From Desulfogranum japonicum DSM 18378 (GTDB lineage: Bacteria > Desulfobacterota > Desulfobulbia > Desulfobulbales > Desulfobulbaceae): a stretch of DNA of 64,000 nucleotides. Under the pieces are notes generated by a model. The model had not been told where the DNA came from. It was given only the letters and a program-made list of their open reading frames with translations, and made no database searches. Location of the stretch: the NCBI RefSeq assembly GCF_000429945.1, contig NZ_KE386994.1, positions 116,394 to 180,393 of the forward strand. The letters run 5' to 3'. Position 1 is the stretch's first letter. Every line of letters starts with the position of its first letter. Positions 3,888 to 27,429 of the stretch are shown one piece after another. A program made the translations under genes and the position numbers.

Positions 3888-5387
3888 TTATGTTGCTGGC
3901 CTTGCCCTGGTTGCCGCCCAGCTGCGTAAAGAGGTTATGTACTCTTTATAGGTAACAGACAAGGGCACTGTTTCTTGTATTTCTGCCACAATATCTGCTT
4001 CTTCGAGATCTCTACCTTCTCCAAATGCGGTATACAGGCTGGAAATAATCAATTGTTCCAGTTCTGCACCGGAGAACCCTTCTGTCTGCTCTACCAGTTG
4101 GGTGAGGTTAAACTGCTCCGGATCGCGTTGTCTTTTTTTTAGGTGGATGCGCAGGATAACAGCTCGTTCCTCCTCATTTGGTAGATCAATAAAAAAGATC
4201 TCATCAAAGCGGCCTTTGCGCAGGAGTTCTGGCGGAAGAGCTTGAATATTATTGGCAGTGGCAATAATAAAAACCGGCGAAGTCTTTTCCTGCATCCAGG
4301 TGAGAAAGGTGCCAAACACTCTTGTTGAGGTTCCTGAATCGGATGTATGACCAGATCCCATACCTGCAAAGGCCTTTTCTATTTCATCCAGCCAAAGGAT
4401 GTTCGGTGCCAGAGATTCAGCAACCTGTATGGCTTCCCGCATGTTCTTCTCAGAAGAACCTATATATGAATCAAATATTTTTCCCACATCAAGTTTGAGT
4501 AGTGGCAGGTTCCAGAGTGTTGCCGTGGCTTTTGCAGCCAGTGATTTACCACACCCCTGCACGCCCAGCAGCATTAAGCCTTTAGGTTCGGGCAGGCCGA
4601 ATTCGCGTGCTTTATGGCTAAATGCCAATCCCCTTTGAGTTACCCAGTGTTTGAGTTTTTCAAGTCCTCCAACAGCCCCCATGTCCTCGATGAAACCATA
4701 ATAATCAAGTATCCCTGATTTGCGGATAACCTTCTTTTTTTCTTCAACTACAAAGGGGATATCCTGTTCATCAAATGACTTATTATTGATGACGAGCCTG
4801 GCGTAAAGGTTTTGTGCTTCTATTTCTGTAAGTCCTGAAGATGCGTGGACAACTTTTTCGATAAGGTCATCATCATACTGCGTCTGAATTTTCCCCATTT
4901 TTTCCAGAGGATGTATAATATCCAGGAGTATCTTTTTAAGCTCTTCTGTATTTGGTAGAGGAATATCGATTGGAGTGATACCCATTTCCAGTCCGGGAGG
5001 CAGGGTGAGTATTGGAGCAATGATAAAGATGGTTTTATAGCTTTTACGCAGGTGAAACAGAATGTCGCGGAATTTCCGTATTATTTTAGAATTCTCCATG
5101 TACGGATGAAAGTCTTTCAGTATAAAAATTCCAGGACCATCAAACTGGAGAATTATGTCCAGTGCCTGATAAGGATCGGTGCTTTTGCTTAAACGGGTTG
5201 TATTGTAGAAACCCTCTGTGACGGTCCAGTAATAACAGGGTTTCTGCGTTCGTTCCGCAGCTTGTGAAATAATATGTTCAGCTCTGTTTTCTTCAGCTGT
5301 AACCAAATATAAAATAGGGTATCGAGCTCTGACGTACAGGTCTAATTCATCGATCAAAGAGCTTGTCTTTTCAGTCACCTTGCGCAT
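3888..5387 (-). CDS. Ycf46-type AAA+ ATPase
   Basis: This 499-residue protein has an N-terminal domain that starts with a degenerate P-loop-like fold (DLYVRARYPILYLVTAEEN, about residues 15-35) and a C-terminal AAA+ ATPase. Walker A is GVQGCGKS (275-282), Walker B ILWLDEIE (about 330-337), followed by a sensor region (FIIATANN) and an arginine-finger stretch (RKGRFDE). This architecture matches the Ycf46 family of plastids, cyanobacteria and many other bacteria, which is FtsH/p97-like but has no protease domain. In cyanobacteria Ycf46 has been linked to CO2/photosynthesis regulation; its role here is unknown. It is transcribed divergently from the OmpA/TelA/ABC cluster with a 159-bp shared upstream region, so the two could be co-regulated. 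Confidence 0.85.
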   Translation of the reverse strand: MRKVTEKTSSLIDELDLYVRARYPILYLVTAEENRAEHIISQAAERTQKPCYYWTVTEGFYNTTRLSKSTDPYQALDIILQFDGPGIFILKDFHPYMENSKIIRKFRDILFHLRKSYKTIFIIAPILTLPPGLEMGITPIDIPLPNTEELKKILLDIIHPLEKMGKIQTQYDDDLIEKVVHASSGLTEIEAQNLYARLVINNKSFDEQDIPFVVEEKKKVIRKSGILDYYGFIEDMGAVGGLEKLKHWVTQRGLAFSHKAREFGLPEPKGLMLLGVQGCGKSLAAKATATLWNLPLLKLDVGKIFDSYIGSSEKNMREAIQVAESLAPNILWLDEIEKAFAGMGSGHTSDSGTSTRVFGTFLTWMQEKTSPVFIIATANNIQALPPELLRKGRFDEIFFIDLPNEEERAVILRIHLKKRQRDPEQFNLTQLVEQTEGFSGAELEQLIISSLYTAFGEGRDLEEADIVAEIQETVPLSVTYKEYITSLRSWAATRARPAT

Positions 5388-5546
5388 AGTATTGTCTCTT
5401 TATGAGTGAGAAATTATAAATCAGAACGAGATATCATTGAAAATATCTGTGAGTCCTTGAGTTTCTATTGTATATTTTTTTTACAGGAATTTCACTTGTT
5501 GATACGTTTTGCATGTTTTTACTGTATGCTTTCAGGGGGAAATATA

Positions 5547-7268
5547 ATGTTTGCAAGGATTACACCTCTATCAATCCTCTTTTATGTTTTGGTGTCCTGG
5601 TTTAACTCAGCCTTTGCCGTTACCTATATGGAGGTCCAGGCATTGCAGAACAAGATCTCCACGCCAGTTGGAGAGGTTCGCAGCAAGAATACTGTTCAGG
5701 TTCCGCTCATTACCTGGGGTGGAGATGAAGCAACCATCCTGGCTAATGGCAATGCTGCCACTACGTCGTCAGGCTCCATTTTCTCAGAGAAGGGATTACA
5801 TATAACCCTTACAAGAGAAGACATATTCACTAATCAGATAAAAAATTACCTTAAAGGCGACACTCCGTATATTCGAGGAACCTTGGGAATGCTCAATATG
5901 GCTCTGGGTGTTTTGAATAAAGATCCGCGGACACGACCTATCGTGATTTATCAGCTGACATGGTCCAATGGAGGTGATTGTCTGGTTGTGAAGGACGGCA
6001 TTCGTACAGCAAAGGATCTGCAAGGGAAGACCATCGCCCTGCAAGCCTATGGGCCTCATGTCTATTACCTTTCGAAGGTTCTTTCCGATGCCGGGCTTTC
6101 TCTCAGAGATGTAACTGTTAAATGGGTAAAAGACCTCACCGGAACAGCTGAAACCCCTATGGAAGCCTTTTACGACAGCAATGTGGATGCTGCCTTAATG
6201 ATTAGTACTGACGGGCTGCTGCTTACCTCAAATGGAACTGTCGGTACTGGAGCAGAGGGATCGGTCAAAGGAGCAAAAATACTGCTTTCCACCAAGACCG
6301 CCAATCGGGTAATTAGTGATGTTTATGCTGTTCGTTCCGATTATTATCAGTCCCATCGTCAAGAGGTGGAACGTTTTGTTCATGGCCTGATGCTGGCAGA
6401 AGAACAATTCAGCCATATCGTGAAAAATTCTGCCAACAGGCAGAAACAGTACATGCAGACCATGACAGCTGCTGCGCAGATTCTGCTTGATAGTCCCGAT
6501 GCCGTAGCCGACGCCGAAGCACTATATGGGGATTGCGAGTTTGTTGGATTTGCCGGTAATGTACGCTTTCTTACTGATTCTAACTATCCAAGAAATCTAC
6601 AGACACTTGCCGACCAGGTTCAGAGTGCACTCATTACCCTCGGCCTGTTGGATACTAAAATAACACTGACTGCTGCAGAGCTTGATTATACCCGATTAAA
6701 ACAGGGGTTGACAGAAGTGGAGGATGTTGTCCTGCCCAAATTTGATACTGCTCAGGTGAGCACTCTGGTGCAACGCAAACAGCAGCAGGGAGCATTGGAA
6801 GAAGGAGAACTTTTTTCTTTTGAAGTTTTTTTTCAACCCAACCAGAATACCTTTGCTGCAGATATGTATGCAAAGGATTTTGACAGGGTCATTGACCTGG
6901 CCTCTACTTATGGTGGTGCTATTATCACCGTTGAAGGGCATTCTGATCCATTAGGTTACCTGAAAGCCAAAAAAAGAGGAGATTCCAAGTTGTTGCTGAC
7001 TAAGGTCAAGCAATCTGCCAAGAATTTAAGCCTGTCAAGGGCCAATGCAGTGCGTACCAGTCTGATTAACTATGCCTCTAAAAGGGGTATCATTATGGAT
7101 GAGACGCAATTTGCCGTGGTAGGGCATGGTATTATGAAGCCCAGGAATGGTCTTTGTGGCTCTGATCCCTGTGCACCTAAAACAGAGCAGCAGTGGCGAG
7201 ATAATATGCGGGTTGAGTTCAGGATTATCCAAATTGAAGCTGAATCTTCCGTATTTAAACCTCTTTAG
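5547..7268 (+). CDS. Periplasmic solute-binding domain fused to OmpA domain (first copy)
   Basis: I chose the ATG at 5547 because a CAGGGGGA SD precedes it and a clean signal peptide (residues 1-23, ending SAFA) follows; the frame is open 141 bp further upstream. The protein has 573 residues. Residues about 45-390 form a type-2 periplasmic binding domain of the phosphate/NMT1-like class (KDLQGKTIALQAYGP, VDAALMISTDG). Residues about 430-570 are an OmpA-like peptidoglycan-binding domain (VEGHSDPLG, then LSRANAVRTSL after a Lys-rich insert). The mature protein should capture a ligand in the periplasm while attached to the cell wall. It is the first gene of an eight-gene co-directional cluster, with 9 bp to the VWA gene. 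The ligand is not predictable from sequence. Confidence 0.85.
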   Translation: MFARITPLSILFYVLVSWFNSAFAVTYMEVQALQNKISTPVGEVRSKNTVQVPLITWGGDEATILANGNAATTSSGSIFSEKGLHITLTREDIFTNQIKNYLKGDTPYIRGTLGMLNMALGVLNKDPRTRPIVIYQLTWSNGGDCLVVKDGIRTAKDLQGKTIALQAYGPHVYYLSKVLSDAGLSLRDVTVKWVKDLTGTAETPMEAFYDSNVDAALMISTDGLLLTSNGTVGTGAEGSVKGAKILLSTKTANRVISDVYAVRSDYYQSHRQEVERFVHGLMLAEEQFSHIVKNSANRQKQYMQTMTAAAQILLDSPDAVADAEALYGDCEFVGFAGNVRFLTDSNYPRNLQTLADQVQSALITLGLLDTKITLTAAELDYTRLKQGLTEVEDVVLPKFDTAQVSTLVQRKQQQGALEEGELFSFEVFFQPNQNTFAADMYAKDFDRVIDLASTYGGAIITVEGHSDPLGYLKAKKRGDSKLLLTKVKQSAKNLSLSRANAVRTSLINYASKRGIIMDETQFAVVGHGIMKPRNGLCGSDPCAPKTEQQWRDNMRVEFRIIQIEAESSVFKPL

Positions 7269-7277
7269 GGGGATATC

Positions 7278-8087
7278 ATGAAAAGAATACTTCGTATCCT
7301 TCTGATATCTGCAGTTGTCGCTGCCTGGATTTATACTCAGTATGGTAAAGACGAGGCTCCTGTGCAACAACCCCCCTCGACTCAAACAAAAAAAGTGAAG
7401 GTAGCCCAGATATCCCCTGAACAAAGAATCTCTAATAAGGAGTTGGTTCCAGAGGCCTGGCCCCCTGTTGTCAAGAATGAAAATAGTGTTGAGTCTGATT
7501 TGCTGAAAAAAAATTATTACGTGATTTTAGACAACAGCGGTTCCATGAAAGACCAGCAATGCTATGGCGCAGGGAGTAAAATTTCCGTTGCTGTAGACGC
7601 GATTGCGCATTTTGCATCCCTGGTACCTGACAAGGCGAACCTCGGGCTGAGTATTTTTACTAACAGCATTATTCAAGAAGCCGTACCCCTGGGAACGGAC
7701 AATAGAAATCTTTTTATTGACGCTCTGGAAAACGTCAACCCCTCCGGAGGTACTCCCTTGGCGACCGCAATGCAATCTGGGTATCGTAAATTGACGGAAC
7801 AGGCCTCCAGACAAATGGGATACGGTGAATACTATCTGGTTATCGTTACTGACGGAATTCCAAGCGAAGGTGAAGACCCGACTGCAATTGTGCATGCTAT
7901 CCTGGACAATACCCCCATCGAAATTCATACAATAGGTTTTTGTATTGGTGAGGATCATGCCCTTAATATCCCAGGCAGAACCGTGTATAAAGCTGCCAAT
8001 AACCAGGAAGATCTTAAACGTGGACTTCAGGATATCCTGGCGGAATCTGAGTTGTTTGACCTTTCAGATTTCAGTTTATCCCAGTAG
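7278..8087 (+). CDS. Membrane-anchored VWA-domain protein
   Basis: This 269-residue protein has one N-terminal membrane anchor (about residues 4-20) and a periplasmic von Willebrand factor A domain (about 80-250). The MIDAS motif DNSGSM is intact at residues 85-90, with the later GGTPLATAM and TDGIPSEGED motifs that complete the metal site, so it should bind a divalent cation and a protein ligand. A linker rich in Pro, Gln and Lys separates anchor and domain. A GGGGGAT SD sits just before the ATG and the gene follows the OmpA-fusion gene by 9 bp. Within the cluster it is a plausible protein-protein adaptor in the periplasm. Confidence 0.88.
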   Translation: MKRILRILLISAVVAAWIYTQYGKDEAPVQQPPSTQTKKVKVAQISPEQRISNKELVPEAWPPVVKNENSVESDLLKKNYYVILDNSGSMKDQQCYGAGSKISVAVDAIAHFASLVPDKANLGLSIFTNSIIQEAVPLGTDNRNLFIDALENVNPSGGTPLATAMQSGYRKLTEQASRQMGYGEYYLVIVTDGIPSEGEDPTAIVHAILDNTPIEIHTIGFCIGEDHALNIPGRTVYKAANNQEDLKRGLQDILAESELFDLSDFSLSQ

Positions 8088-8113
8088 ACCTTTATACATT
8101 CAGGACGCATTGT

Positions 8114-9685
8114 ATGAGTAAAAAAGTTGTGGGGGCTTTACTGCTCCTTGTTCTTTCCGTGATAGTGGTTGTCGTCGCCTGGCTGCTTTTGCCAATGCTA
8201 CAGGACAGACATCAGTCCCATACCAGTGATGCTGCTAAAGCCAGTGAAAAAATTCGGATAGGGGTGGACAACTGGATAGGATATTTTCCCCTGTGTTCAC
8301 AGGAAATGAAAAGTGCCATGCATCAGGCCGGATATATTCTTATTTGCGAAGATGACCGTGCTGATTATGCCGAACGTATGCAACGTCTGAAAAATGGTGA
8401 ACTTGATTTTGCTGTGGCTACGGTGGATTCGTATCTGTTGAATGCGAAAGCTCATGGGTTTCCAGCCACCATTGTCTCTGTAATTGATGAATCAAAGGGT
8501 GGGGATGCTATCCTGACCAGAGAAAAAAATGTAAATAGCCTGGACGACTTCAAGGGAAGAAATGATCTTCGCGTGGCGTTTACGCCCTCCAGTCCAAGCC
8601 ATTACCTTCTCAAGGCTGCTGCTGATCATTTTAATGTTCCTGAACTCCTGCCGTCTGCAGGATCACACCGTATTGAAACCGCCGGATCTGAACAGGCAAG
8701 GGATAAATTGTTTACCGGGGCTGCTGATGTTGCTGTACTGTGGGAACCGGATGTCAGTAAAGCTCTTGAGCAGGAAGGGGTGAAGAAAGTCCTTGGTACA
8801 GAAGACACCCAGCGTTTGATTGTAGATATTCTACTGGTAAACAGGGAGTATTCTCAAAAGTCACCAAAGGTAGTGAAACTGTTGCTGTCAACCTACTTTT
8901 CCATTTTAAAAAAATATAGAAGTGATGAAAAGTTGCTTCGAAAGCATGTAAAAAAACAGACCAAACTGACTGACCAGCAGATTACGGTAATGCTTTCCGG
9001 GGTCCATTGGGCATCATTTAACGAAAATTGTGAACAATGGTTCGGTATCGGTGTTCCAGGTGCAGAGACAGAGGAAAGCCTTGTCGAAACCCTCGAATCC
9101 ACAGCTGCAGTATTGATCAGCGCTGGTGATTTCTCAACAACTCCCATACCCAATAATAATCCATATCGACTGACCAACTCTTCGTTTCTTGAAGAGTTGT
9201 TTACCCAAGGAATGGGAGGCTTTTCTGTGCCTGCCAACAATACGGTGTTGAAGGAGTCAAAGGATAGTCTTGAAGCGCGATTTACACCTTTGGATGACAA
9301 AGGATGGCAAAAACTGAAAGAAATAGGAACATTGCGTATAGATCCCATTATTTTTCAAAGTGGCTCAACCCAACTGACATTGATTGCAAAACAGGTCGTT
9401 GACAACACCATTGCCAGGTTGAAACATTACCCCCATTTTCGTGTCATTGTACGTGGACACACCGGAACACGGGGAGACACAACAGCCAATGAGCAATTGT
9501 CACAACAACGGGCTGAAGCAGTGGCAAGATACATGACCATCACGTACAGTATCGATCAGAATCGGCTGTACACAGAAGGAGTGGGCGGGAGCATGCCTCT
9601 TGAAAAAAAATCCGGCGAGAGCGATCGAGCCTATCAATACAGACTGCCCAGGGTTGAGTTGATACTGGTACGGGAAGAAATCTGA
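8114..9685 (+). CDS. Membrane-anchored solute-binding domain fused to OmpA domain (second copy)
   Basis: This 523-residue protein starts with an uncleaved-looking transmembrane anchor (about residues 5-28). A periplasmic binding domain of the NMT1/nitrate-taurine class follows (about 45-330; GVDNWIGYFPL, GELDFAVATVDSYL, GAADVAVLWEPDV). A C-terminal OmpA-like domain (about 410-523) has the canonical VRGHTGTRGD and LSQQRAEAVARYM motifs. It is a divergent paralogue of the product starting at 5547, but anchored in the inner membrane rather than secreted, so it could bridge the inner membrane to peptidoglycan. It lies 26 bp after the VWA gene. The NMT1-like domain matches the class of binding protein expected for the importer at 13104-14842. 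Confidence 0.87.
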   Translation: MSKKVVGALLLLVLSVIVVVVAWLLLPMLQDRHQSHTSDAAKASEKIRIGVDNWIGYFPLCSQEMKSAMHQAGYILICEDDRADYAERMQRLKNGELDFAVATVDSYLLNAKAHGFPATIVSVIDESKGGDAILTREKNVNSLDDFKGRNDLRVAFTPSSPSHYLLKAAADHFNVPELLPSAGSHRIETAGSEQARDKLFTGAADVAVLWEPDVSKALEQEGVKKVLGTEDTQRLIVDILLVNREYSQKSPKVVKLLLSTYFSILKKYRSDEKLLRKHVKKQTKLTDQQITVMLSGVHWASFNENCEQWFGIGVPGAETEESLVETLESTAAVLISAGDFSTTPIPNNNPYRLTNSSFLEELFTQGMGGFSVPANNTVLKESKDSLEARFTPLDDKGWQKLKEIGTLRIDPIIFQSGSTQLTLIAKQVVDNTIARLKHYPHFRVIVRGHTGTRGDTTANEQLSQQRAEAVARYMTITYSIDQNRLYTEGVGGSMPLEKKSGESDRAYQYRLPRVELILVREEI

Positions 9686-9765
9686 TGATCAGTACGACGT
9701 ACTATCTGTACTTTGTAATGAGAATTTACGATCGAGAGCAGGTAAGCGAAGACTCAGGGAAGGCC

Positions 9766-9790
9766 ATTTATGGACAGGCGCTACCTAAAG
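9766..9790 (+). repeat. ATTTATGGACAG motif, copy 1
   Basis: ATTTATGGACAG at 9766-9777, followed by GCGCTACC, sits about 25 bp upstream of the next start codon. The same 11-12 bp core occurs as an inverted pair at 11923-11989 and again at 62977. The sequence just upstream (AGGTAAGCGAAGACTC) also resembles the flank of the 62977 copy, so a longer dispersed element is likely. Confidence 0.5.
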
Positions 9791-9803
9791 GGAGTAATTA
9801 GAG

Positions 9804-10643
9804 GTGGAAAAAACATCAGATCAGGTCAATGATTATTCCCGTAAAGCTATTCGCAGGGAAGTTGTGCGCGAGGGATTGACTCATTGGCTGACCCTGTATC
9901 CCACAGCAGTTGGAATTCCCATCGGGTTGGCTGGATTTCTTTTTCATATGCCCGTGCTGTATTTTGGCCTGGTCGGTACGTTGACTTTAAGCCTTGCCAG
10001 TGCAATCATTCATGTTTTCTTCAGAGAAGAGACCATTGGTGCCCGCTATCTTGAGCGTCTCTCTAAAAAAATAAAAGCAGAAGAAACACGGGCATTGGCC
10101 TCCCTTCAGGAGGATTTACAGGCATGCAGACAACAGGTGGTTGGTGGTGAACATGCTGTTCAGGCTACCGAACAGTTCGCCCGCTTGCAAAGGAAGTATG
10201 AGAATGTACGCATAGTACTGGACAAAAAACTGCAAAGAGGAGAATTGACCTATGGTCGATTTATTGGAGCCGCAGAACAGGTCTATTTGCGTGGGCTTGA
10301 GAATTTGAAGCAATTGGTGGTTGTGCTTCAGAGTTTAAGCAGTATTGATACTGAATATATCAGGACCAGGCTGGATATTTTGAACATGAAAACAAAGCGT
10401 GATTCAGCGGATGTGAAGGAACAGGAAACCTTGCACAACAGAATCACGCTGATGGAAAATCAGCTTGCCCTGGTGAATCAGCTGCTGACTGTTAATGAAG
10501 AAGCAATGACTGCACTGGAGGAAACTACCGCCGCCATTGCGGCCATGCAGACAACCGGAACCACCTCCCATGAAGAGTATGATTCTGCTATCTTGCAACT
10601 GCAGGAAATAGCAGGTAACGCGCATTTGTATAACCGAAGATAA
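9804..10643 (+). CDS. Two-helix membrane protein with long coiled coil
   Basis: The start is GTG at 9804; an AAAGGGAG SD lies about 10 bp upstream. The 279-residue product has a charged N-terminus, two closely spaced membrane helices at about residues 30-75 with a short loop, and then about 200 residues of predominantly helical, Gln/Glu/Arg-rich sequence typical of a coiled coil facing the cytoplasm. I do not recognise a named family. It lies 11 bp before the telA-like gene, and both products are helical and cytosol-facing, so it may be the membrane docking partner of the TelA-family protein. Confidence 0.75.
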   Translation: MEKTSDQVNDYSRKAIRREVVREGLTHWLTLYPTAVGIPIGLAGFLFHMPVLYFGLVGTLTLSLASAIIHVFFREETIGARYLERLSKKIKAEETRALASLQEDLQACRQQVVGGEHAVQATEQFARLQRKYENVRIVLDKKLQRGELTYGRFIGAAEQVYLRGLENLKQLVVVLQSLSSIDTEYIRTRLDILNMKTKRDSADVKEQETLHNRITLMENQLALVNQLLTVNEEAMTALEETTAAIAAMQTTGTTSHEEYDSAILQLQEIAGNAHLYNRR

Positions 10644-10654
10644 AGGAGAGCGAG

Positions 10655-11863
10655 ATGGCGCAGCTCAGGCATAAAGAAGAGGCCCTGCAAGTGGCAGATG
10701 CAGCCGATGTACAACTTGAATTAGGGATTGAAGAAGAACCTGTACTTGAAGGAGATTCTGCTGATCCTGCCTTGCAGAAACTGGCTGACGAGTTTGTGCA
10801 AAAGATTTTGGAATTTAATCCTGATGATGCTTCTCAATCAGTATTGCGAAGCCAGAATGTTGCATCTGTGGAAAATTTGGGAGCAAAAATACAAAAAGAA
10901 TCTGCTTTGCGCAGTGCCATGCTCAAAGAACCGATCCAGAAGCTGGCATCAAGAGGGGAAGATGGAGGGGAAGTTGCCAATGCCCTGGTAGATCTGAATA
11001 TGGAAGTTGAAGAATTGGATCCAGGGAAGTTTGATTTTGAGGCTGGATGGTTTCCACGTATGTTCGGCTTTATTCCTGGGGTCGGAAAGCCGATTAAACG
11101 TTACTTCATGAAATTTGAGTCATCCCAGACAGTTCTTGATGCCATTTTCAGATCTCTGGAAGACGGTGCTGATATGCTCAAACGTGATAACATCACGTTG
11201 ACTGAAGACCAGAAGAAATTGAGAGAATTGTCAGGGAAATTACGTCGTACCATCAATCTGGGACAAATTGTTGACCAGAGATTCAACCAGGTATTGGAAC
11301 AGGAAATACCTTCCGACGACTCCCGCTACAAGTTTATAGAAGAAGAACTGCTGTTTCCACTGCGTCAGAGATTGATGGATCTGCAGCAGCAGCTCGCTGT
11401 TACTCAGCAGGCTGTTTTAGCCATTGAAATCATTACACGTAATAACAAAGAGCTTATCAGAGGCGTCAACAGGGCCATAAATGTGACAGCCAATGCTTTG
11501 AATGTTGCTGTGACCGTAGCCCTTGCCCTTGCCAATCAGAGAATAGTGTTAAACAAGATTGAGTCGGTGAATGAAACCACCAATAAGTTGATTGGTGATA
11601 CAGCCAGACAGTTGAAGGAGCAGGGGACAGAGATTCACAAGCAGGCCGCATCCAGTCAGCTTGATATGGAATCCCTGAAACAGGCTTTTGCTGATATTAA
11701 CGCGGCCCTCGACGATATATCTCATTTCAGGCAGAAAGCACTCCCTAAAATGGCATCCACACTTAACGAGATGGATCAATTAACCCTGCAGACAGATGAA
11801 GCCATCACCCGATTGGAAAAAGGCACTGAAGTCAATCCTGTTATATATCTCGAAATTGATTGA
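10655..11863 (+). CDS. telA: TelA/KlaA-family protein (toxic anion resistance family)
   Basis: This 402-residue soluble, mostly helical protein has the family landmarks: a central GWFPRMFGFIPGVGKPIKRY-like segment after an acidic lead-in, the YFMKFESSQTVLDAIFRSLEDG segment, and a long helical C-terminus with NRAINVTANALNVAV. TelA (PF05816) was named for tellurite resistance on plasmid RK2 and recurs in chromosomal Ter-type stress loci; its biochemical activity is unknown. No Ter genes are present here. The association with OmpA-tethered binding proteins and an ABC importer argues for an envelope role. An AAAGGAGAGCGAG SD precedes the ATG. Confidence 0.9.
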   Translation: MAQLRHKEEALQVADAADVQLELGIEEEPVLEGDSADPALQKLADEFVQKILEFNPDDASQSVLRSQNVASVENLGAKIQKESALRSAMLKEPIQKLASRGEDGGEVANALVDLNMEVEELDPGKFDFEAGWFPRMFGFIPGVGKPIKRYFMKFESSQTVLDAIFRSLEDGADMLKRDNITLTEDQKKLRELSGKLRRTINLGQIVDQRFNQVLEQEIPSDDSRYKFIEEELLFPLRQRLMDLQQQLAVTQQAVLAIEIITRNNKELIRGVNRAINVTANALNVAVTVALALANQRIVLNKIESVNETTNKLIGDTARQLKEQGTEIHKQAASSQLDMESLKQAFADINAALDDISHFRQKALPKMASTLNEMDQLTLQTDEAITRLEKGTEVNPVIYLEID

Positions 11864-11922
11864 TCGCTCTTTTTAAACATGCTCGTTTGCTCGAACAGAC
11901 ATCGATATTTGCTATCTTGTAC

Positions 11923-11989
11923 CTGTCCATAAATGGTTTTCGAATTCTGCGCATGTCTTTATTTGGGCACAATCCTCATTTATGGACAG
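11923..11989. repeat. Inverted pair of the ATTTATGGACAG motif
   Basis: CTGTCCATAAAT (11923-11934) and ATTTATGGACAG (11978-11989) form a perfect 12-bp inverted repeat with a 43-nt spacer, placed between telA and the importer genes. It could be an RNA hairpin, an operator or the two ends of a small dispersed element. The right arm creates a spurious upstream ATG for the next gene. Confidence 0.6.
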
Positions 11990-12014
11990 ACACTATCTTA
12001 CCCAGGAGGATAGG

Positions 12015-13082
12015 ATGAATTTAAGAAATAGAATTATTGCTACGATTATTGGTGTGCTTATGTATCTTTTACCTGCTCTGTCTTTTGCAGGTGAAAGCTA
12101 TCGCATTGCCTGGTCCCATTATACAGGATGGGAACCATGGGAGTATATACAACAGTCTGGCATTATGAATAAATGGGCAAAAAAATATGGGATCGACAAG
12201 GTTGAAATCACGTTGGTAAACGACTACATCGAAAGCATTAACATGTACACCACCGGTCATTTTGATGGTTGTGTCATGACCAATATGGACGCCCTGACCA
12301 TTCCGGCTGTAGGTGGTGTGGATTCGAGTATAGTAGTTGTCGGTGATTTTTCTAACGGGAACGATGGTATCGTCGTGTTAAATGGAACCGACGTCAAGGA
12401 TCTTAAAGGGGCCAATCTGCGTATTGTGGAGTTGTCCGTATCCCATTACTTGCTTAGTCGTGCTTTGGATTTGCATGGTCTAACGGAAGGTGACCTCAAT
12501 CTTATTAATACCAGTGATGCAGATATTGCAGCCCTGTTTGTTTCGGAAGCTGAAAAAGATCCAAAAGCCGCAGCATGTACCTGGAATCCATTATTGATGC
12601 AGGTGAGAAATGTGGCTGGAGCTAACCTGGTTTTTGATTCATCCAAAATTCCAGGTGAAATCATCGACTGCCTGGTTGTACGATCTGATGCACCAGAAAA
12701 CCTGAAAAAAGCTTTGACTGGAGCCTGGTATGAGGCAATGTCCATTATGAACGGGCACGAACAACAGGGGAAGGAGGCATTGGAACTTATGGCGCAATCT
12801 GCCGGAGGAACACTGGCAGAATTTAAAGCACAGCTGAAAACAACCCGTATGTTTTATTCTGCAGCTGAGGCCGCGGCCTTTACCAACGGAGCACAACTTA
12901 AAGAAACAATGGAATATGTTCGCACATTCAGCTTTGACCACGGGCTGTATGGAGATGGTGCGCCAAGTAAGGATCTGGTTGGAATTCGTTTTCCCGATGG
13001 TTCGGTGATCGGTGATACCAATAATGTCAAACTTCGATTTGATGCAACGTATATGAGCCTGGCTGCACAGGGACAACTGTAA
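12015..13082 (+). CDS. ABC transporter periplasmic binding protein (urea/nitrate/taurine type)
   Basis: I chose ATG 12015, preceded by AGGAGG at 12004-12009, because the product then begins with a signal peptide (residues 1-25, ending SFAG); the in-frame ATG 33 bp upstream lies inside a repeat. The 355-residue protein resembles the binding proteins annotated as putative urea transporter components near urea carboxylase genes (SYRIAWSHYTGWEPWEY, VGGVDSSIVVVGDFSNGNDGI). No urea carboxylase or urease gene is nearby, so the substrate is uncertain. It is the dedicated soluble binding protein for the permease and ATPase that follow. Confidence 0.85.
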   Translation: MNLRNRIIATIIGVLMYLLPALSFAGESYRIAWSHYTGWEPWEYIQQSGIMNKWAKKYGIDKVEITLVNDYIESINMYTTGHFDGCVMTNMDALTIPAVGGVDSSIVVVGDFSNGNDGIVVLNGTDVKDLKGANLRIVELSVSHYLLSRALDLHGLTEGDLNLINTSDADIAALFVSEAEKDPKAAACTWNPLLMQVRNVAGANLVFDSSKIPGEIIDCLVVRSDAPENLKKALTGAWYEAMSIMNGHEQQGKEALELMAQSAGGTLAEFKAQLKTTRMFYSAAEAAAFTNGAQLKETMEYVRTFSFDHGLYGDGAPSKDLVGIRFPDGSVIGDTNNVKLRFDATYMSLAAQGQL

Positions 13083-13103
13083 TATTACAAGTAGACGGCA
13101 GTG

Positions 13104-13937
13104 ATGAAAAATAAAGCAAAATTCTGGGGAATCCATGCTGCACCGTCAAAATGGTTGAGCTGGTTTTTATTCGCTCTGCCTTTTGTCCTGCTTATTTTGG
13201 GTTACCTGCTTGCCTCCGAATATCGGCACAGGCAAAATCCATCGGATAAGTTGCTGCCATCCTTCAGTAAAATGGCAACGACCATGCAACATGTCGCTTT
13301 TGAAAAAAATAAACGGACAGGTGAATACCAGCTTTTGTCAGACACTTTGGCCAGCCTTAAGCGTATCGGTACAGGTCTGGGGATGGCAGCGTTATTGGGG
13401 GTGATCTGTGGGCTTAATTTAGGTCTGTTTCCTGGAATTCGGCATTTGTTTCTACCGCTGTTGACCTTTGTGTCCATCATCCCCCCCCTGGCAATTCTTC
13501 CCATGCTGTTCATTGTCTTTGGAGTGGATGAGCTGGCCAAAGTCGTTTTGATTTTTATTGGTACCTTTCCTGTTATAACGCGAGATATCTATCTTACAGT
13601 CAAGAAGATTCCCAGGGAACAGATTGTGAAAACTCTAACCCTGGGTGCCTCCCAGATCTCTTTGGTATACCGTGTGGTGTTACCGCAGATTTTTCCCAGG
13701 CTTATTGAGACGGTACGAATAAATATGGGGCCAGCCTGGCTTTTCCTCATTGCATCCGAAGCCATTGCCGCACAATCCGGGCTGGGTTACCGTATCTTTC
13801 TTGTTCGGCGTTATCTGGCTATGGATATGATTATTCCATATGTGCTGTGGATTGTATGTATTGGCATTACTGTGGATTGGATTTTGAAGAGTCTTCTGCG
13901 GTACAAATTTTCATGGTATATGAAGCAACAGGGATAA
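13104..13937 (+). CDS. ABC transporter permease, SsuC/TauC/NrtB type
   Basis: This 277-residue inner-membrane permease has about six helices and the binding-protein-dependent inner-membrane EAA-like loop near LGASQISLVYRVVLPQIFPR. It starts at ATG 13104; a GTG immediately before is also possible. It follows the binding-protein gene by 21 bp and is followed by the ATPase gene within 2 bp. An N-terminal extension of about 75 residues before the conserved core includes one membrane helix, as in other members. It forms the channel of the importer of this cluster. Confidence 0.9.
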   Translation: MKNKAKFWGIHAAPSKWLSWFLFALPFVLLILGYLLASEYRHRQNPSDKLLPSFSKMATTMQHVAFEKNKRTGEYQLLSDTLASLKRIGTGLGMAALLGVICGLNLGLFPGIRHLFLPLLTFVSIIPPLAILPMLFIVFGVDELAKVVLIFIGTFPVITRDIYLTVKKIPREQIVKTLTLGASQISLVYRVVLPQIFPRLIETVRINMGPAWLFLIASEAIAAQSGLGYRIFLVRRYLAMDMIIPYVLWIVCIGITVDWILKSLLRYKFSWYMKQQG

Positions 13938-13939
13938 GT

Positions 13940-14842
13940 ATGCAGACAGAATCGCTTCGAGCAAACAGTTTTCTTTTCTTTGAAGATGTCTATAAATCCT
14001 ACGGTGCAAAGGTGGTGCTGGATGATATTGATCTGGCCGTAGCCAGGGGAGAAATTATAACCGTGGTGGGGCCAAGTGGTTGCGGCAAATCAACTTTGTT
14101 GAGGTTGGTTCTTGGTCAGGAGTTACCTTCAAGAGGCCAGGTTACGCTGGAGGGAAAAAGCGTTGGTCTGCCCGATGTCACCAGAGGAATCGTGTATCAG
14201 AAATATTCACTGTATCCGCACTTGACTGTGCTTGATAATGTGTTGATGGGACCGAGGCTGTCCATGCCGCTGCTAAAGAGGTGGCGGGTGCGTGGTGAAT
14301 TACGTGAAGAAGCCTTTACATATTTACGTAAGGTCGGGCTGGCTGAACACTATCGTAAATATCCCCATGAGCTTTCCGGTGGTATGCGTCAGCGTGTAGC
14401 CATTGCACAATCGTTGATCATGAAGCCGAAAATATTGTTGATGGATGAACCTTTTGGTGCACTGGATCCGGGAACCAGGGAGAATATGCAACTTTTTCTT
14501 CTGGAATTGTGGGAAGAATTTAAAATGACAATATTTTTTGTCACCCATGATCTTGAAGAGGCCGTGTTTCTAGGTACTCGTATTCTGATTTTGTCCCAGT
14601 ATTATACCGATGATCGAGGTGACGGTTCCCATGCCAACAGAGGTGCGAAAATAGTATTTGATACAGCACTTCCCAAAGAGGCACAATCAACCTCTGTAAA
14701 AAGCGTTGCCGCTTTCGGTGCTCTGATCCAGCAGATCAGAAGGGAAGGATTTGATCCGGATTACCTTCAGCATGCTCGCGATTTTAACCTCAATCATCCT
14801 TATTCCTTTCAGACTTTGCGCAGAGAGGAGAACGGGATATAA
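13940..14842 (+). CDS. ABC transporter ATP-binding protein, SsuB/TauB/NrtD type
   Basis: The ATG at 13940 follows the permease stop directly; the frame is open further upstream but that would run through the permease gene. The 300-residue product has Walker A (GPSGCGKST), a Q-loop (VYQKYSLYPH), signature LSGGMRQRVAIAQSL, Walker B (ILLMDEPFGALD) and H-loop (VTHD). A roughly 60-residue C-terminal extension after the ATPase core has no recognised domain. It completes the importer and is the last gene of the 5547-14842 cluster. Its TAA coincides with the left end of a MITE-like repeat, which may act as the transcript end. Confidence 0.92.
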   Translation: MQTESLRANSFLFFEDVYKSYGAKVVLDDIDLAVARGEIITVVGPSGCGKSTLLRLVLGQELPSRGQVTLEGKSVGLPDVTRGIVYQKYSLYPHLTVLDNVLMGPRLSMPLLKRWRVRGELREEAFTYLRKVGLAEHYRKYPHELSGGMRQRVAIAQSLIMKPKILLMDEPFGALDPGTRENMQLFLLELWEEFKMTIFFVTHDLEEAVFLGTRILILSQYYTDDRGDGSHANRGAKIVFDTALPKEAQSTSVKSVAAFGALIQQIRREGFDPDYLQHARDFNLNHPYSFQTLRREENGI

Positions 14843-15117: not shown

Positions 15118-15936
15118 TTACAGCAGGTTTTTATAAAATGGAATCCACTTTTCAATCATAGGCACCAGCGTATTTTCGTCTTTCATGGACTGCAGATATG
15201 CATTCGCCTTGTTCAGGATTTCTGTGTTACCAGGGTGTACTGCCCAGGCGGTGTATTCCCGTGTCAAGGGAACTATAACCGGCTTCAATCCTTTATCACT
15301 GTATTGTGCTCCATAATAGAGATTGGTTGGCAGGTCGTAAACCAAAACGTCTATGCTTTCGTCCAGGAGTGCAAGAACAGCTTTGTTTGCGGAGTTGAAC
15401 TGTATTCTGTTTCCCCTGGCTCTATTTTGTTCAATGAGGTAGTCACCGGTGGTCCCTTTCACCGTACCTACCTTCATTACCGGATTAAGGAGTGCAGGGA
15501 AACCCTCGCTGAACCGGTTATAATCCTCTCGGCGGACCAGGGAAATCTGGCTTGTTACCATATAGGGCTCGCAGAAATTGATTTGGTATTTTCTTGCTTC
15601 TGTAATGGTCATCCCTGACATGATAATGTCAATTTTACCATCAAGGAGAGCAGGGATTTGTTCTGTCCACTTTAGTTCGACCAGACTGAGTTTTTTTCCA
15701 GTGTATTGTGCAAGCCCTTTTGCAAAAGCAACCTCCAGCCCAATGGCCTTGCCATGATCACGGAATACCAAAGGTGGGTCGGTTGGCGTAATTCCAACCT
15801 TGAGGGTATCCTGTCTCGCAGATTCTTCTATTTTGCTGGGAGAAAGGCCACTGTTTTGTGCGCATCCACATATTAACAGAGTAATTCCTGTGAAACAGAA
15901 AAAAGTAAGAAAAAGAAGCCAGTGGTTATTCTTCAA
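15118..15936 (-). CDS. Amino-acid-type solute-binding lipoprotein (SBP_bac_3)
   Basis: This 272-residue protein has a signal sequence ending in lipobox LICGC (Cys near residue 25). It then carries a family-3 binding fold (VGITPTDPPLVFRDHGKAIG, LLDGKIDIIMSGMTITEAR, FCEPYM), which normally binds polar amino acids. No amino-acid permease or ATPase is beside it. Instead it is the last gene of an MCE lipid-transport operon and overlaps the DUF3124 gene by 11 bp. It may be an orphan receptor or a repurposed subunit. Confidence 0.88.
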   Translation of the reverse strand: MKNNHWLLFLTFFCFTGITLLICGCAQNSGLSPSKIEESARQDTLKVGITPTDPPLVFRDHGKAIGLEVAFAKGLAQYTGKKLSLVELKWTEQIPALLDGKIDIIMSGMTITEARKYQINFCEPYMVTSQISLVRREDYNRFSEGFPALLNPVMKVGTVKGTTGDYLIEQNRARGNRIQFNSANKAVLALLDESIDVLVYDLPTNLYYGAQYSDKGLKPVIVPLTREYTAWAVHPGNTEILNKANAYLQSMKDENTLVPMIEKWIPFYKNLL

Positions 15937-16429
15937 TTGATTCTCCTTTGATGACTATGCCTCTGGAGATAAACGAGATCCCCTGTTGCATTTTCGTGCC
16001 AATGGAAATGGATTCAATAATTGGCTGTGTGGCGTCTTTTTTCGTTTTCCAGCTGACAAGAAATTTAGCTCCTGATCCACCCTGGTTTTCTGATTCATGA
16101 ACAATATATTGCATGGAACCCAGTGGCTGGATGGATAGGGGGGCCTTCAGATAGTGCTTGATCAGGTTTCCCTCTGAATCATAAAAATCAACTTGGTGAA
16201 GAGTGATAGCGTTTTCCGGATCAGTATTGCGAATAGAGAGGGTGGCGGTGAGGAGGAATGGTTTGTCACCATAGCGTTTGTCTGCATAGATATGACTGTA
16301 TAAAGGAACATAGACGAGCTGTCCGGTCCATCTGGCAAGATTGGTCATCCCACCGTAGGCATCAGGTTTCAACCAGCAAGAGAGTATGAGTAAAAAAAAC
16401 AGACAGGTACGTTGAAAAGAGAGAATCAT
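15926..16429 (-). CDS. DUF3124 periplasmic protein
   Basis: This 167-residue protein has an N-terminal signal peptide (about residues 1-26) and a beta-rich body. The motifs VYVPLYSHIYADKR, LTATLSIRNTD and a C-terminal GISFISRG match the DUF3124 family, whose function is unknown. It begins one base after the pqiC stop on the same strand and overlaps the next gene, so it is firmly part of the Mla-type operon. A role in envelope lipid handling is inferred from context only. Confidence 0.85.
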   Translation of the reverse strand: MILSFQRTCLFFLLILSCWLKPDAYGGMTNLARWTGQLVYVPLYSHIYADKRYGDKPFLLTATLSIRNTDPENAITLHQVDFYDSEGNLIKHYLKAPLSIQPLGSMQYIVHESENQGGSGAKFLVSWKTKKDATQPIIESISIGTKMQQGISFISRGIVIKGESIEE

Positions 16430-17068
16430 CTAGTCGTCCTCTGTATGGGATTGTTGCAGACCGATGAGTGTATCCGCTATCTGCCCGCTGAGTGTAGAAA
16501 TGGCTTGGGATCCGGCTGTGACCTGATGCGGATAATCAGGTATGGCAAGCTCGGTACTGAGAGCAAATGAAGAACGTTTAACAACGCGTTGGGTTTTTGA
16601 ATTACTGATGGTCCAGTTTGCCAGGGTGTTAAAGGTATTGTTTGTCATGGAAAAATCTTGGATATTTACCTCTATACGGTAATCATACTTGGCATACCTG
16701 GGGCCAGGGTAGACGGCTATGTTGGGTGAATGCAGCAGGGCTCCCAGATTCTGGCTCAAAACGGTTGTCAATTGCTGATCCAGAGGGGCAGCCCAGGCGT
16801 GCGTACGGGCGATGGTTACGGTGGTGCCGTCCGGACGGCTGAGTATACCAGGGTGTTGCAGCAAGGCTGCCAGTTCAACGGGCATGATCAGAATCATTGC
16901 AGGGACCAGCGGCTCCTTACCCGGTAGCTTTTCCTGTCCATTCACATCCAGTGGGTACAAAGCGTATTGATGCATTTTGGTCGTCGACCCAACACACCCA
17001 CCCAGAAACAAGCTACAGCACAGAGACAGAAGCAGGATTGGTGTTCTCATAGTCAGCAAAGACCTCAT
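16430..17068 (-). CDS. pqiC: PqiC/YmbA-type lipoprotein (DUF330)
   Basis: This 212-residue lipoprotein has lipobox LGGC (Cys near residue 25) and an ABC-type auxiliary fold (YALYPLD, PVELAALLQHPGILSR, YRIEVNIQDF). PqiC proteins sit at the outer membrane and receive MCE (PqiB-like) tunnels. Here the gene follows the MCE gene by 73 bp, which supports the same role. The start is ambiguous: ATG 17068, or ATG 17050 with a GAGG 12 bp upstream; both give a good lipoprotein signal. Confidence 0.85.
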   Translation of the reverse strand: MRSLLTMRTPILLLSLCCSLFLGGCVGSTTKMHQYALYPLDVNGQEKLPGKEPLVPAMILIMPVELAALLQHPGILSRPDGTTVTIARTHAWAAPLDQQLTTVLSQNLGALLHSPNIAVYPGPRYAKYDYRIEVNIQDFSMTNNTFNTLANWTISNSKTQRVVKRSSFALSTELAIPDYPHQVTAGSQAISTLSGQIADTLIGLQQSHTEDD

Positions 17069-17141
17069 GTGGTTATGCAGAAATTATTGCAGCTGCCTGC
17101 CTCAGGCGTTATCTGATGTGGCAGCCTGAAATCATAGTATA

Positions 17142-18158
17142 TCAGTTTTGTGGGGGTTGTTCTTTCCTGCCAAACAAAAGGGATTCGGGAGATTGTCGCA
17201 GCAATTCACTGAGATTTTTTACTGAACGGGCCGTTTGCTTGATCTCCAGTAGCGTTTGAGAAAAGTCATACGTAATATTGCCTGTTTCGTCAACCATATC
17301 CTGAAGTTGTTGCAAAGTCTTGTGTAGAGTGAATAGTATTTGGTCAGCGTCAGCAAGAATTTTTTGAGATTGTATCCCCAATGGTGTGAGCTCGTTTTTT
17401 GCCGTCTGTACAAGTAAAGTCGTTTCTGAACTCAGGCTGTCAAAACTTTCAAGACTTTCATCTGCATGTTGCATGAGTGCTGGTACGTCTTGTTTCATCG
17501 TTGTTATCAGCTCGTCAAATTCCAGCATTGCATGTTGAAAATTGTCCATTGCTTCTGAGAGATGTTGTGATGTCAGAATAGTGTTTACATTGTCCAACAG
17601 TCTGTTTGTTTTGGTTAGCAGGTCGTGAACCGGTAAATCAGTTAGCGTTTGGGTAAGTTGCTCCAATCCGGATGGAAGGGTGGGAATTTCAAAAATATTT
17701 GTATTCTGTCCGTGAAGCGTGATCTCTGTTTCAGGATGAAAGGCCAGGTCAATGTAGAGCTTCCCTGTTACCAGGCTGCTTATTTTCAGTTGTGCGCGCA
17801 ATCCTTTTTCAATGAGTTCGTTCAGTGATTGGCGTTGAAGATTTTCTTCGAACAGGGGAGATGTTTTGCTTTCTGTTTTGGCCTGTCGGTCAATTTCAAT
17901 GTAGACAGGAATAGTATAGTTGCTTTCCTGATAATTGAAATCTATGCGAATATCTGTAACTCTGCCAATCTTGACCCCACGCAAGCTCACCGGAGCGCCT
18001 TTGTCAAGGCCATAGAGAGAACCTGTGAAATAGAGGATACACTTGATGGGGCTTTGTTGAAGTTGCAGATTACCGAGAATGATCGTTGCTCCAATGGCGA
18101 TGACAAGGGATACAAACACAAAGGTTCCGATCATTGTTGGATTTGCCTGCCTGCTCAC
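17142..18158 (-). CDS. mlaD: MCE/MlaD-family lipid-binding protein
   Basis: This 338-residue protein has one N-terminal membrane anchor (about residues 10-28) and a single MCE domain (about 38-115; LYGLDKGAPVSLRGVKIGRV). It continues into a long helical C-terminus (about 170-330) rich in Leu/Gln/Thr that probably forms a helical barrel or needle. It is larger than E. coli MlaD (about 180 residues), so it resembles the single-MCE-plus-helix type that can reach a PqiC lipoprotein. The start overlaps the ATPase stop by 4 bp. Confidence 0.9.
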   Translation of the reverse strand: MSRQANPTMIGTFVFVSLVIAIGATIILGNLQLQQSPIKCILYFTGSLYGLDKGAPVSLRGVKIGRVTDIRIDFNYQESNYTIPVYIEIDRQAKTESKTSPLFEENLQRQSLNELIEKGLRAQLKISSLVTGKLYIDLAFHPETEITLHGQNTNIFEIPTLPSGLEQLTQTLTDLPVHDLLTKTNRLLDNVNTILTSQHLSEAMDNFQHAMLEFDELITTMKQDVPALMQHADESLESFDSLSSETTLLVQTAKNELTPLGIQSQKILADADQILFTLHKTLQQLQDMVDETGNITYDFSQTLLEIKQTARSVKNLSELLRQSPESLLFGRKEQPPQN

Positions 18159-18919
18159 GAAGATGTCCTCCTTCTTCCCTCTCCCCTGGTGAGAAAGTCT
18201 ATGACATTTTGATGTGTTGAGTTGTTCAGCATCTCCTCTGGGGAGCCGACAGCCAGCATGGTTTTTTCTTCTGCATCAAGATACACAGCGTTAGTCGCAA
18301 TGGCAAAAATAGAATGAAGTTCATGGGTTACCAGGACGACCGTTGCACCAAGACTGTTTCGTATTTCTACAATGAGTTCATCCAGGTTTTTGGCATTAAC
18401 AGGATCAAGTCCAGCCGAAGGCTCATCAAAGAAAAGATATTCAGGGTCAAGGACGATGGCACGGGCAAGACCAGCTCTTTTTCTCATGCCTCCGGAGATT
18501 TCAGAAGGGTAATAGTCCTCACATCCTTTCAGACCGACCAGAGATAGTTTAAAATGGATTATATCCTGTATCATAGATCCAGAGAGGTTCGTGTACTGTT
18601 GCAGAGGAAGGGCGAGATTGTCGGCTAAGGTCATACTGCTCCAGAGTGCCCCGGATTGATAGAGAATTCCTGTTTTTCGGAGAATCAGAGATTGTTCCTG
18701 GTCATCCAACGTCCAAAAATCTTCCGTGCCGTAATAAATAGTACCTGTGCGGGGGCGGTGCAGGCCTATAAGGTGCCTGAGAAGGGTGGATTTACCGCAG
18801 CCACTTCCGCCCATGATGGCAAAGATATCTCCTCGATTAATTGTAAAAGTGAGGTCCTTCTGAATAATATCGCTGCCATATGACATTGTCAGGTTGTCAA
18901 TGGTGATCACGGCTGTCAT
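18155..18919 (-). CDS. mlaF: MlaF-type ATP-binding protein
   Basis: This 254-residue ABC ATPase has Walker A (GGSGCGKST), a Q-loop (LYQSGALWSS), signature ISGGMRKRAGLARAI, Walker B (YLFFDEPSAGLD) and an H-loop (VTHE). The ISGGM-KRA signature and the DEPSAGLDP Walker B are typical of the MlaF/Mkl subgroup that powers MCE lipid transport. It lies 4 bp after the permease gene and overlaps the MCE gene. Confidence 0.93.
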   Translation of the reverse strand: MTAVITIDNLTMSYGSDIIQKDLTFTINRGDIFAIMGGSGCGKSTLLRHLIGLHRPRTGTIYYGTEDFWTLDDQEQSLILRKTGILYQSGALWSSMTLADNLALPLQQYTNLSGSMIQDIIHFKLSLVGLKGCEDYYPSEISGGMRKRAGLARAIVLDPEYLFFDEPSAGLDPVNAKNLDELIVEIRNSLGATVVLVTHELHSIFAIATNAVYLDAEEKTMLAVGSPEEMLNNSTHQNVIDFLTRGEGRRRTSS

Positions 18920-18923
18920 CGTT

Positions 18924-20060
18924 TCACATGGTTTTACTGAAGTTAAATAAAAACGTCATGATGGCATCCGCAATGACAATGAGCACGATACCTGTTACCA
19001 CCGCTGAAGTTGCAGCCTGTCCCACCGAAGATGCACTCCGTCCGCATTGCAGGCCACGGAGACAACCTGCATAACCAACAAGGATACCATAGACAGCGCT
19101 TTTGATCAGCCCTTGCAAACATTGATCAAGCTGAATTGCTTTCCGGGTGTATTCAAAGTACTCCACCAATGAAAGATCCAGCATGGAGACACCGATAATT
19201 GCGCCTCCCAGAATTCCCAGGAGATCAGCATAGACGCAGAGTAAAGGCAACATGAGCATCAGTGCGAACATTCGGGGCAGCACCAGAAAAGCCACCGGCG
19301 ATATCCCCAGGGTTCTGAGGGCATCTATTTCTTCGTTGACTTGCATGGTTCCAAGCTGTGCCGCATATGCTGCGCCGGTTCTTCCAGCCATGATAACACC
19401 ACTCATCATGGCTCCCATTTCCATAACCATGGCCAGTCCAACCAGATTGGCAATGTATATCTGAACTCCGAACATTTGAAGTTGTACTGCACCTACGAAA
19501 GCCAGAATAACTCCCACAAGTACTGAAATAAGAGAGACAATGGGAAGAGCGTCTGCACCGGTGGACTGAATAAAGTTCCAGAAGTCATTGTACCTGAATT
19601 TACTTTTCCCATTCAGGGTCTGTATACAGGCTATGATTATTTCACCGGTAAAGGAAATGAGTCCTTCTCCTTTATCGACCAAAGAAATTGTTGTATGGCC
19701 AAGTCGAGTGATAAAGCTTGTATCTGGTTTTTTTTTCAGAGGTTTTGGTGGCGTTGAGCAACTTAAATGCAAGAGATTTTTCGCCCCTGCGGGAAGACCG
19801 TCGAACTGTAACTCTACAGCAGGGGGAGCACAGAGATCAATCAGTCGGAGGATAAATACGGGCAGTAAACTGTCCCACGTCTTGAGCTCGCTTGTGTCAA
19901 AAGAAATGCTGCGAAGTGCAGTTCGATCAAGTAGATCACGAATAGGGTCCAGGCTTGGGATAGTGCTGGCAAGCGTCCAGTTGCCAAGGAGTTTCAGTCG
20001 CACCTCTTCCTCTGTAATTTGCTGCACTCTGTATTCCGGTGGTGGAGAATGTTGGAGCAT
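18924..20060 (-). CDS. mlaE: MlaE-family permease with N-terminal STAS-like domain
   Basis: This 378-residue protein has about 115 soluble N-terminal residues resembling a STAS domain (FDTSELKTWDSLLPVFI). The MlaE membrane domain follows (about 125-378), with GRTGAAYAAQLGTMQVNEEIDALRTLG as the family hallmark. STAS-MlaE fusions replace the separate MlaB subunit of E. coli. It is the first gene of the lipid-transport unit and starts 34 bp after the metal-permease stop, so read-through from the upstream metal transporter is possible. No SD is obvious at ATG 20060. Confidence 0.9.
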   Translation of the reverse strand: MLQHSPPPEYRVQQITEEEVRLKLLGNWTLASTIPSLDPIRDLLDRTALRSISFDTSELKTWDSLLPVFILRLIDLCAPPAVELQFDGLPAGAKNLLHLSCSTPPKPLKKKPDTSFITRLGHTTISLVDKGEGLISFTGEIIIACIQTLNGKSKFRYNDFWNFIQSTGADALPIVSLISVLVGVILAFVGAVQLQMFGVQIYIANLVGLAMVMEMGAMMSGVIMAGRTGAAYAAQLGTMQVNEEIDALRTLGISPVAFLVLPRMFALMLMLPLLCVYADLLGILGGAIIGVSMLDLSLVEYFEYTRKAIQLDQCLQGLIKSAVYGILVGYAGCLRGLQCGRSASSVGQAATSAVVTGIVLIVIADAIMTFLFNFSKTM

Positions 20061-27422: not shown

Positions 27423-27429
27423 CAAAATA

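Follow-up and report, generated by a model that had tools for sequence, protein, structure and literature searches.

The 64,000-nucleotide stretch of the Desulfogranum japonicum DSM 18378 genome analysed here (contig NZ_KE386994.1, positions 116,394 to 180,393; hereafter the window) contains at positions 5547–14842 a block of eight open reading frames (ORFs), which a first-pass annotation made from the letters alone had described as an envelope system. These genes combine two fusions of a solute-binding protein (SBP) to an OmpA-like domain (OSB1 and OSB2), a VWA protein, a membrane-anchored coiled-coil protein (CC), a TelA-family protein and the three parts of an ATP-binding cassette (ABC) importer. 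ORF reading and domain searches confirmed that all eight are open, co-directional and closely spaced, at the coordinates and with the domains first given (Table 1). The gaps between them are 9, 26, 118, 11, 118–151 and 18 bp, with an overlap between the genes for the permease and the ATPase. For OSB1, the longest reading of the ORF begins at 5406, and the start taken from alignment is 5547. No terminator-like site was found in either of the longer gaps (9685–9804 and 11863–12015), and terminator counts across the region were not above those of shuffled sequences (7 versus 9.4). The list of eight parts was right as far as it went; what it missed were a divergently transcribed AAA+ gene, which is a ninth member of the system, the replacement of TelA by a PspA-like protein in relatives, and the copies on plasmids and huge phages.

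Table 1. Features of the nine-gene locus in the window, with the scores that support them.
Feature	Position	Strand	Support
AAA+ ATPase, N-terminal domain without family; divergent from the operon, ninth member	3888–5387	-	Pfam AAA, 103 bits
Divergent intergenic region, 159 bp, presumed control region	5388–5546	.	
OSB1: signal peptide, NitT/TauT-type (NMT1-type) binding domain, OmpA-like peptidoglycan-binding domain	5547–7268	+	
VWA protein, N-terminal membrane anchor, intact metal-ion-dependent adhesion site (MIDAS)	7278–8087	+	44 bits (cut-off 24)
OSB2: N-terminal membrane anchor, phosphonate/NMT1-type binding domain, OmpA-like domain	8114–9685	+	68 bits
CC: two N-terminal hydrophobic helices, then a long predicted coiled coil	9804–10643	+	No Pfam family
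TelA-family protein	10655–11863	+	Pfam PF05816, 242 bits (cut-off 30)
Free NitT/TauT-type binding protein	12015–13082	+	TIGR03427, 476 bits (cut-off 334)
ABC importer permease, TauC/SsuC-like	13101–13937	+	Pfam BPD_transp_1, 68 bits
ABC importer ATPase	13937–14842	+	Pfam ABC_tran, 110 bits; Walker A GPSGCGKST, signature LSGGM and Walker B LLMDEP intact

To identify related loci across species, 84,980 species genomes were scanned with OSB1 as the seed, which returned at least 95 relatives, and the best 80 were kept. Profiles were made from the nine window proteins, all ORFs around the 80 loci were labelled, and gene order and content were counted in the 47 loci whose sequence extends 9.5 kb or more beyond OSB1 on the downstream side. 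Of the eight families, six or more occur together in 37 of these loci, and the exact order OSB1–VWA–OSB2–CC–(TelA or PspA-like protein) is found in 29, with median gaps between genes of 13–50 bp across the relatives' loci. Carriers are spread over the Desulfobacterota, Gamma- and Betaproteobacteria, Acidobacteriota, Planctomycetota, Verrucomicrobiota, Myxococcota, Spirochaetota, Bacteroidota, Omnitrophota, Sumerlaeota and others. Many of the loci come from metagenome-assembled genomes, for which single phylum labels (especially Patescibacteria) may reflect binning errors; the carriers include isolates of Pleionea, Zooshikella, Sulfidibacter and Botrimarina. As a control, 90 proteins encoded immediately beyond the block were compared, and no Pfam family was shared by more than 2 of them, so the flanking genes do not recur. 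Recurrence of the system's own families in a common order in different phyla puts the grouping far beyond chance. The first-pass annotation had proposed that co-location of at least five of the eight families in distant phyla would support a single system, a level that is exceeded here, and the block is well supported as one conserved system.

This system is made of two modules. The genes from OSB1 through VWA, OSB2 and CC to TelA stay joined, and the importer trio (free binding protein, permease and ATPase) can be inverted, shifted upstream or moved away. Three loci (L080:1832-6695, L095:6191-11710 and L099:13-5676) carry OSB1 and the importer trio only, with no VWA, OSB2, CC or TelA; such layouts are possibly an uptake-only ancestor or a relic. 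The AAA+ family recurs adjoining the block. In 12 loci with the PspA-like protein, in operons of the kind found in Planctomycetota, Verrucomicrobiota and Acidobacteriota, it closes the operon, and in TelA-type loci it mostly lies divergently upstream, as in the window, with several copies sharing the window's subfamily.

TelA proteins are widespread and, to our knowledge, have no established biochemical activity. In the system described here, the gene after CC encodes TelA in 19 loci and a different helical protein in another 19, an exchange that needs at least two changes on the OSB1 tree. Compared with PspA homologues from the order of the window organism, this second protein gave an hhalign probability of 95%, against 0.2–6% for control comparisons of PspA with the other coiled-coil families of the system. 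Its predicted structure (predicted local distance difference test score, pLDDT, 78) starts with a helix at the N terminus and continues as a long hairpin; among Foldseek matches to this model, Vipp1 and PspA of the ESCRT-III superfamily ranked first (E 4.4e-4). TelA was also considered as a possible homologue of the PspA-like protein or of CC, and this was rejected (hhalign 0.3–4%). An exclusive tie of TelA to the system is countered by five other Desulfobacterota genomes in a phylum-wide sample, which have TelA over the cut-off and no full-length SBP–OmpA fusion; TelA therefore has other contexts as well.

Independent published work places TelA and PspA within a common physiology. In Bacillus subtilis, xpaC–yaaN(telA) and pspA both belong to the sigmaW regulon (PMC3498285), and in Lactococcus XpaC–TelA is induced as part of the envelope-stress regulon CesSR; its deletion partly impairs growth on membrane-protein overload (PMC3139573). 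A contribution of Listeria TelA to nisin tolerance is stated in the title of Collins 2010 (cited in PMC12791056). The XpaC–TelA (YaaN) pair of Bacillota resembles the present system in that a membrane protein gene lies directly upstream of the TelA gene and the pair is induced by envelope stress; it differs in having no importer, OmpA-tethered receptors, VWA protein or AAA+ protein. An identity of CC with XpaC was rejected because no Pfam match was obtained: the window protein does not match XpaC (PF10112) at E values up to 1, and XpaC is not among the 25 most-matched families for 12 CC members.

Residues needed for wall and metal binding were then compared across the relatives. For the OmpA-like domains, the comparison used the conserved Asp and Arg that hold diaminopimelate. 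Both are invariant in OSB1 (D467 and R498, in all 89 sequences with letters at those positions), the profile of which matches OmpA domains of known structure. In OSB2 the Arg is kept in 102 of 102 sequences and the Asp in just 15, being usually lost outside phages; the short phage versions have Asp or Asn at this position. The peptidoglycan binding first attributed to both OmpA domains is thus supported for OSB1 and less so for OSB2. The intact MIDAS reported for the VWA protein was borne out in relatives, some of which have a lipobox, with each position of the site (DxSxS, Thr and Asp) kept in 76–77 of 77 sequences. Because the binding domains of OSB1 and OSB2 match the TIGR03427 profile weakly, these two receptors and the free binding protein look like paralogues on sequence grounds.

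The importer is a complete NitT/TauT-type transporter with binding protein, permease and ATPase, and the intact Walker A, signature and Walker B pattern was also checked in relatives. The unlinked co-occurrence of receptors and importer is the strongest evidence that they work together. G364 and G369, both near-complete genomes, retain the gene for TIGR03427 at a distance of approximately 112–116 kb from the receptors. Among 57 relatives, TIGR03427 was over the cut-off in five, all of them OSB1-positive; one more OSB1-positive genome, in 230 contigs, had no TIGR03427, and no OSB1-negative genome had it. This pattern would have p ~1e-6 if genomes were independent, which they are not. The partnership of receptors with importer proposed from the window is supported by these two observations.

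The system is patchy and horizontally mobile. OSB1 was found in 14 of 258 genomes of the order, including several single-contig genomes of one genus, and in none of six congeners of the window organism; in the phylum-wide sample, only the window genome contained full-length OSB1, the other matches being short ones to the binding domain. All eight genes are present on the Vibrio megaplasmids pIFO15640, pSEA2 and pAM7, with the ATPase moved to the front. Downstream of the megaplasmid operons comes a series of small membrane proteins (112–130 amino acids; e.g. L016:22848-25026), which have a similar layout and are conserved between plasmids. A pared-down variant on Vibrio coralliilyticus plasmid p380 (L018:14240-17908) contains only a 208-amino acid protein, a relative of OSB1 (26% identity) and a VWA protein with an apparently degenerate metal site (LILDASSTTT); the 208-amino acid protein resembles one of 196 amino acids that precedes the Vibrio megaplasmid operons.

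Phage genomes were searched for proteins containing both the binding domain and the OmpA domain. Across 50,697 phage records, such proteins were found only in Lak phages (540–552 kb), Bacillus phage G (497 kb) and metagenomic phages of 595 and 735 kb. The Lak coiled-coil protein matched 15 Lak genomes, every one of which carries the module. The 595-kb genome encodes OSB1, VWA, OSB2, CC, a PspA-like protein, the free binding protein, the permease and the ATPase, in the order of the window. In IMG/VR, relatives were found on 32 contigs, with full-type operons on contigs of 545, 436, 299 and 94 kb, among others. Two short versions were recognised: a Lak type (coiled coil, membrane coiled coil, SBP–OmpA, permease and ATPase) and a phage G type (permease, ATPase, two helical proteins and SBP–OmpA), the membrane coiled-coil proteins of which are related (hhalign 80%). 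A terminase was detected on 9 of 22 records tested, including those of 545, 299, 595 and 735 kb, with the score of the 545-kb record barely over the cut-off. No TelA was found in phages by tblastn, and a profile search found it on one 545-kb IMG/VR contig. To account for the viral copies, the OSB1 tree requires a minimum of two to three independent switches between carriers. The two Lak-phage papers searched make no mention of an ABC importer or OmpA.

These results are read here, tentatively and with a little less than even confidence, as an envelope-integrity system in which wall receptors and an ATP-driven importer would be coupled to an inner-membrane scaffold of the TelA/PspA type. The receptor–scaffold coupling, the recycling by the AAA+ protein, the solute, the contacts and the physiological role are what we infer. 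The mobile nine-gene system would guard the inner membrane from its periplasmic and cytoplasmic sides together. In the periplasm, three related binding proteins (one free, one tethered to the wall through its OmpA domain, and one that extends from the inner membrane to the wall) would capture a solute and pass it to the single ABC importer, and the anchored MIDAS VWA protein would hold or gate this assembly. On the cytoplasmic side, CC would bring a helical scaffold protein of peripheral type (TelA, or a PspA/Vipp1-like protein of ESCRT-III type) to the membrane beside the importer, and the AAA+ ATPase would recycle it in the way that Vps4 acts on ESCRT-III. If envelope integrity were lost, solute capture or wall tension would change and thereby trigger assembly of the scaffold, and huge phages and megaplasmids would carry the system to keep the host cell sealed and energised. 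The broader proposal, of a mobile envelope machine of bacteria, megaplasmids and the largest phages in which an ESCRT-III-type (or TelA) scaffold assembles on the inner membrane under the control of wall-anchored receptors and importer, and which huge phages would use to keep the host intact through infection, is possible and is held more doubtfully. An apparent resemblance to PspA/Vipp1 systems lies in the TelA-slot protein of half of the relatives, by profile and predicted fold, and in a nearby AAA+ protein; the AAA+ protein here is not of the PspF activator type, and the system includes an ABC importer and wall-tethered receptors.

Several observations weigh against the envelope-integrity reading. 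The slot protein scores under the Pfam cut-off for PspA (PF04012; 15.9 versus 33.9 bits), a further difference from PspA/Vipp1 systems, and VIA-align of its model was not selective, Vipp1 being tied with many unrelated helical hairpins, including those of SMC, chemoreceptor and PI3K proteins; for these reasons, the protein is said only to resemble PspA and is named PspA-like. Since the predicted model of TelA is poor (pLDDT 63) and gave no significant fold match, the slot may be all that TelA and the PspA-like protein have in common. The two groups of AAA+ proteins belong by alignment to different subfamilies, so that the subfamily differs between clades, and the AAA+ gene is not in view in approximately half of the loci. 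The short versions of huge phages lack the VWA and TelA genes and have no AAA+ protein that could be recognised with confidence. Finally, the importer motifs are those of a normal transporter.

In a different explanation, the system serves specialised nutrient or nitrogen uptake: tethered receptors would concentrate a scarce urea-, guanidine-, nitrate- or sulfonate-like solute, CC, TelA and VWA would only organise the complex, and the phage copies would be an auxiliary metabolic module. It agrees with the completeness of the importer, its co-occurrence with the receptors, the NCBI name of TIGR03427 (putative urea transporter protein) and the reduced layout of OSB1, free binding protein, permease and ATPase in L080 and L099. 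However, urea carboxylase was over the cut-off in just 2 of 22 operon-bearing genomes. In the window genome (G000) it lies on another contig (C26, with the operon on C8), where the full-length enzyme (1865 bits) has its own, different TIGR03427-like binding protein nearby (148 bits; C26:6661-15002, the binding protein at C26:6661). The link to urea carboxylase by genome and neighbourhood that goes with TIGR03427 membership was thus not found, and no riboswitch, for guanidine or of any other Rfam family, reached the gathering score in the window or seven relatives. A urea or guanidine importer was rejected on these grounds, and the label of urea transporter is not supported. The flanks contain no recurring catabolic genes, and uptake leaves the PspA-like/TelA scaffold, the AAA+ protein and the VWA protein unexplained; it is considered rather unlikely. 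In comparison with known NitT/TauT-type importers (taurine, aliphatic sulfonate, nitrate and TIGR03427), the binding protein, permease and ATPase are recognisable with intact motifs, whereas the system described here has three related binding domains per importer, two of them fused to OmpA, as well as the extra VWA, coiled-coil, TelA/PspA-like and AAA+ proteins. The system may alternatively be classed as an elaborated ABC importer.

Mobility and patchiness, with carriage on megaplasmids and huge phages, would also suit a conflict system, either for superinfection exclusion or as an inner-membrane barrier against phages or plasmids in which, as in Zorya, the sensors would be OmpA-anchored. Like ZorA/ZorB of Zorya and the stators of MotB/TolR type, the system includes an inner-membrane protein that reaches the wall through an OmpA-like domain, and the OmpA domain of OSB2 gives a weak match to ZorB (26 bits). 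This match is confined to the OmpA domain, none of the nine proteins matches ZorA, and unlike those systems the present one has neither a MotA/ExbB/ZorA-like channel nor Zorya effectors; no nuclease, NADase or other effector is encoded. Defence genes do not recur in the flanks, and location in a defence island was rejected after PADLOC, run on 90 flanking proteins, gave kinase-type matches in two proteins only, among the families listed. We know of no superinfection-exclusion or anti-phage system built on an ATP-driven importer, and a role in conflict appears improbable. Toxic-anion or tellurite resistance, suggested by the presence of a TelA family member, by the family's name and by a link reported for the lactococcal orf53–telABC locus (PMC13109727), is very hard to credit, as a PspA-like protein can take the place of TelA in its slot, most phage versions lack TelA, the importer would carry anions inward, and the other links of TelA are to envelope stress. 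Of the Ter stress-response system, neither TerC nor TerD was found among the window proteins scanned or the 25 families listed for the relatives' flanks.

Elsewhere in the window, an ordinary MCE/Mla-type lipid transport operon lies near the importer operon (15926–20060), in which the MCE protein (17142–18158) matches PqiB and is adjoined by an ABC ATPase and permease. A single 1107-amino acid protein encoded at 27400–30723 fuses a TIGR00375-type domain to a UvrD/PcrA-type helicase.

The individual families of the nine-gene system are known. No description of their combination was found in the open-licence literature, outside which most subscription journals lie, and the system is not known to be a variant of any described one. 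Because the operon lets TelA be exchanged for a PspA/Vipp1-like protein, it places TelA in a defined setting in which its role is directly testable. If the broader proposal of a mobile envelope machine is true, TelA would gain its first mechanistic setting. An envelope module common to unrelated huge phages would be informative, in general terms, about the demands that very large phages make on the cells they infect.

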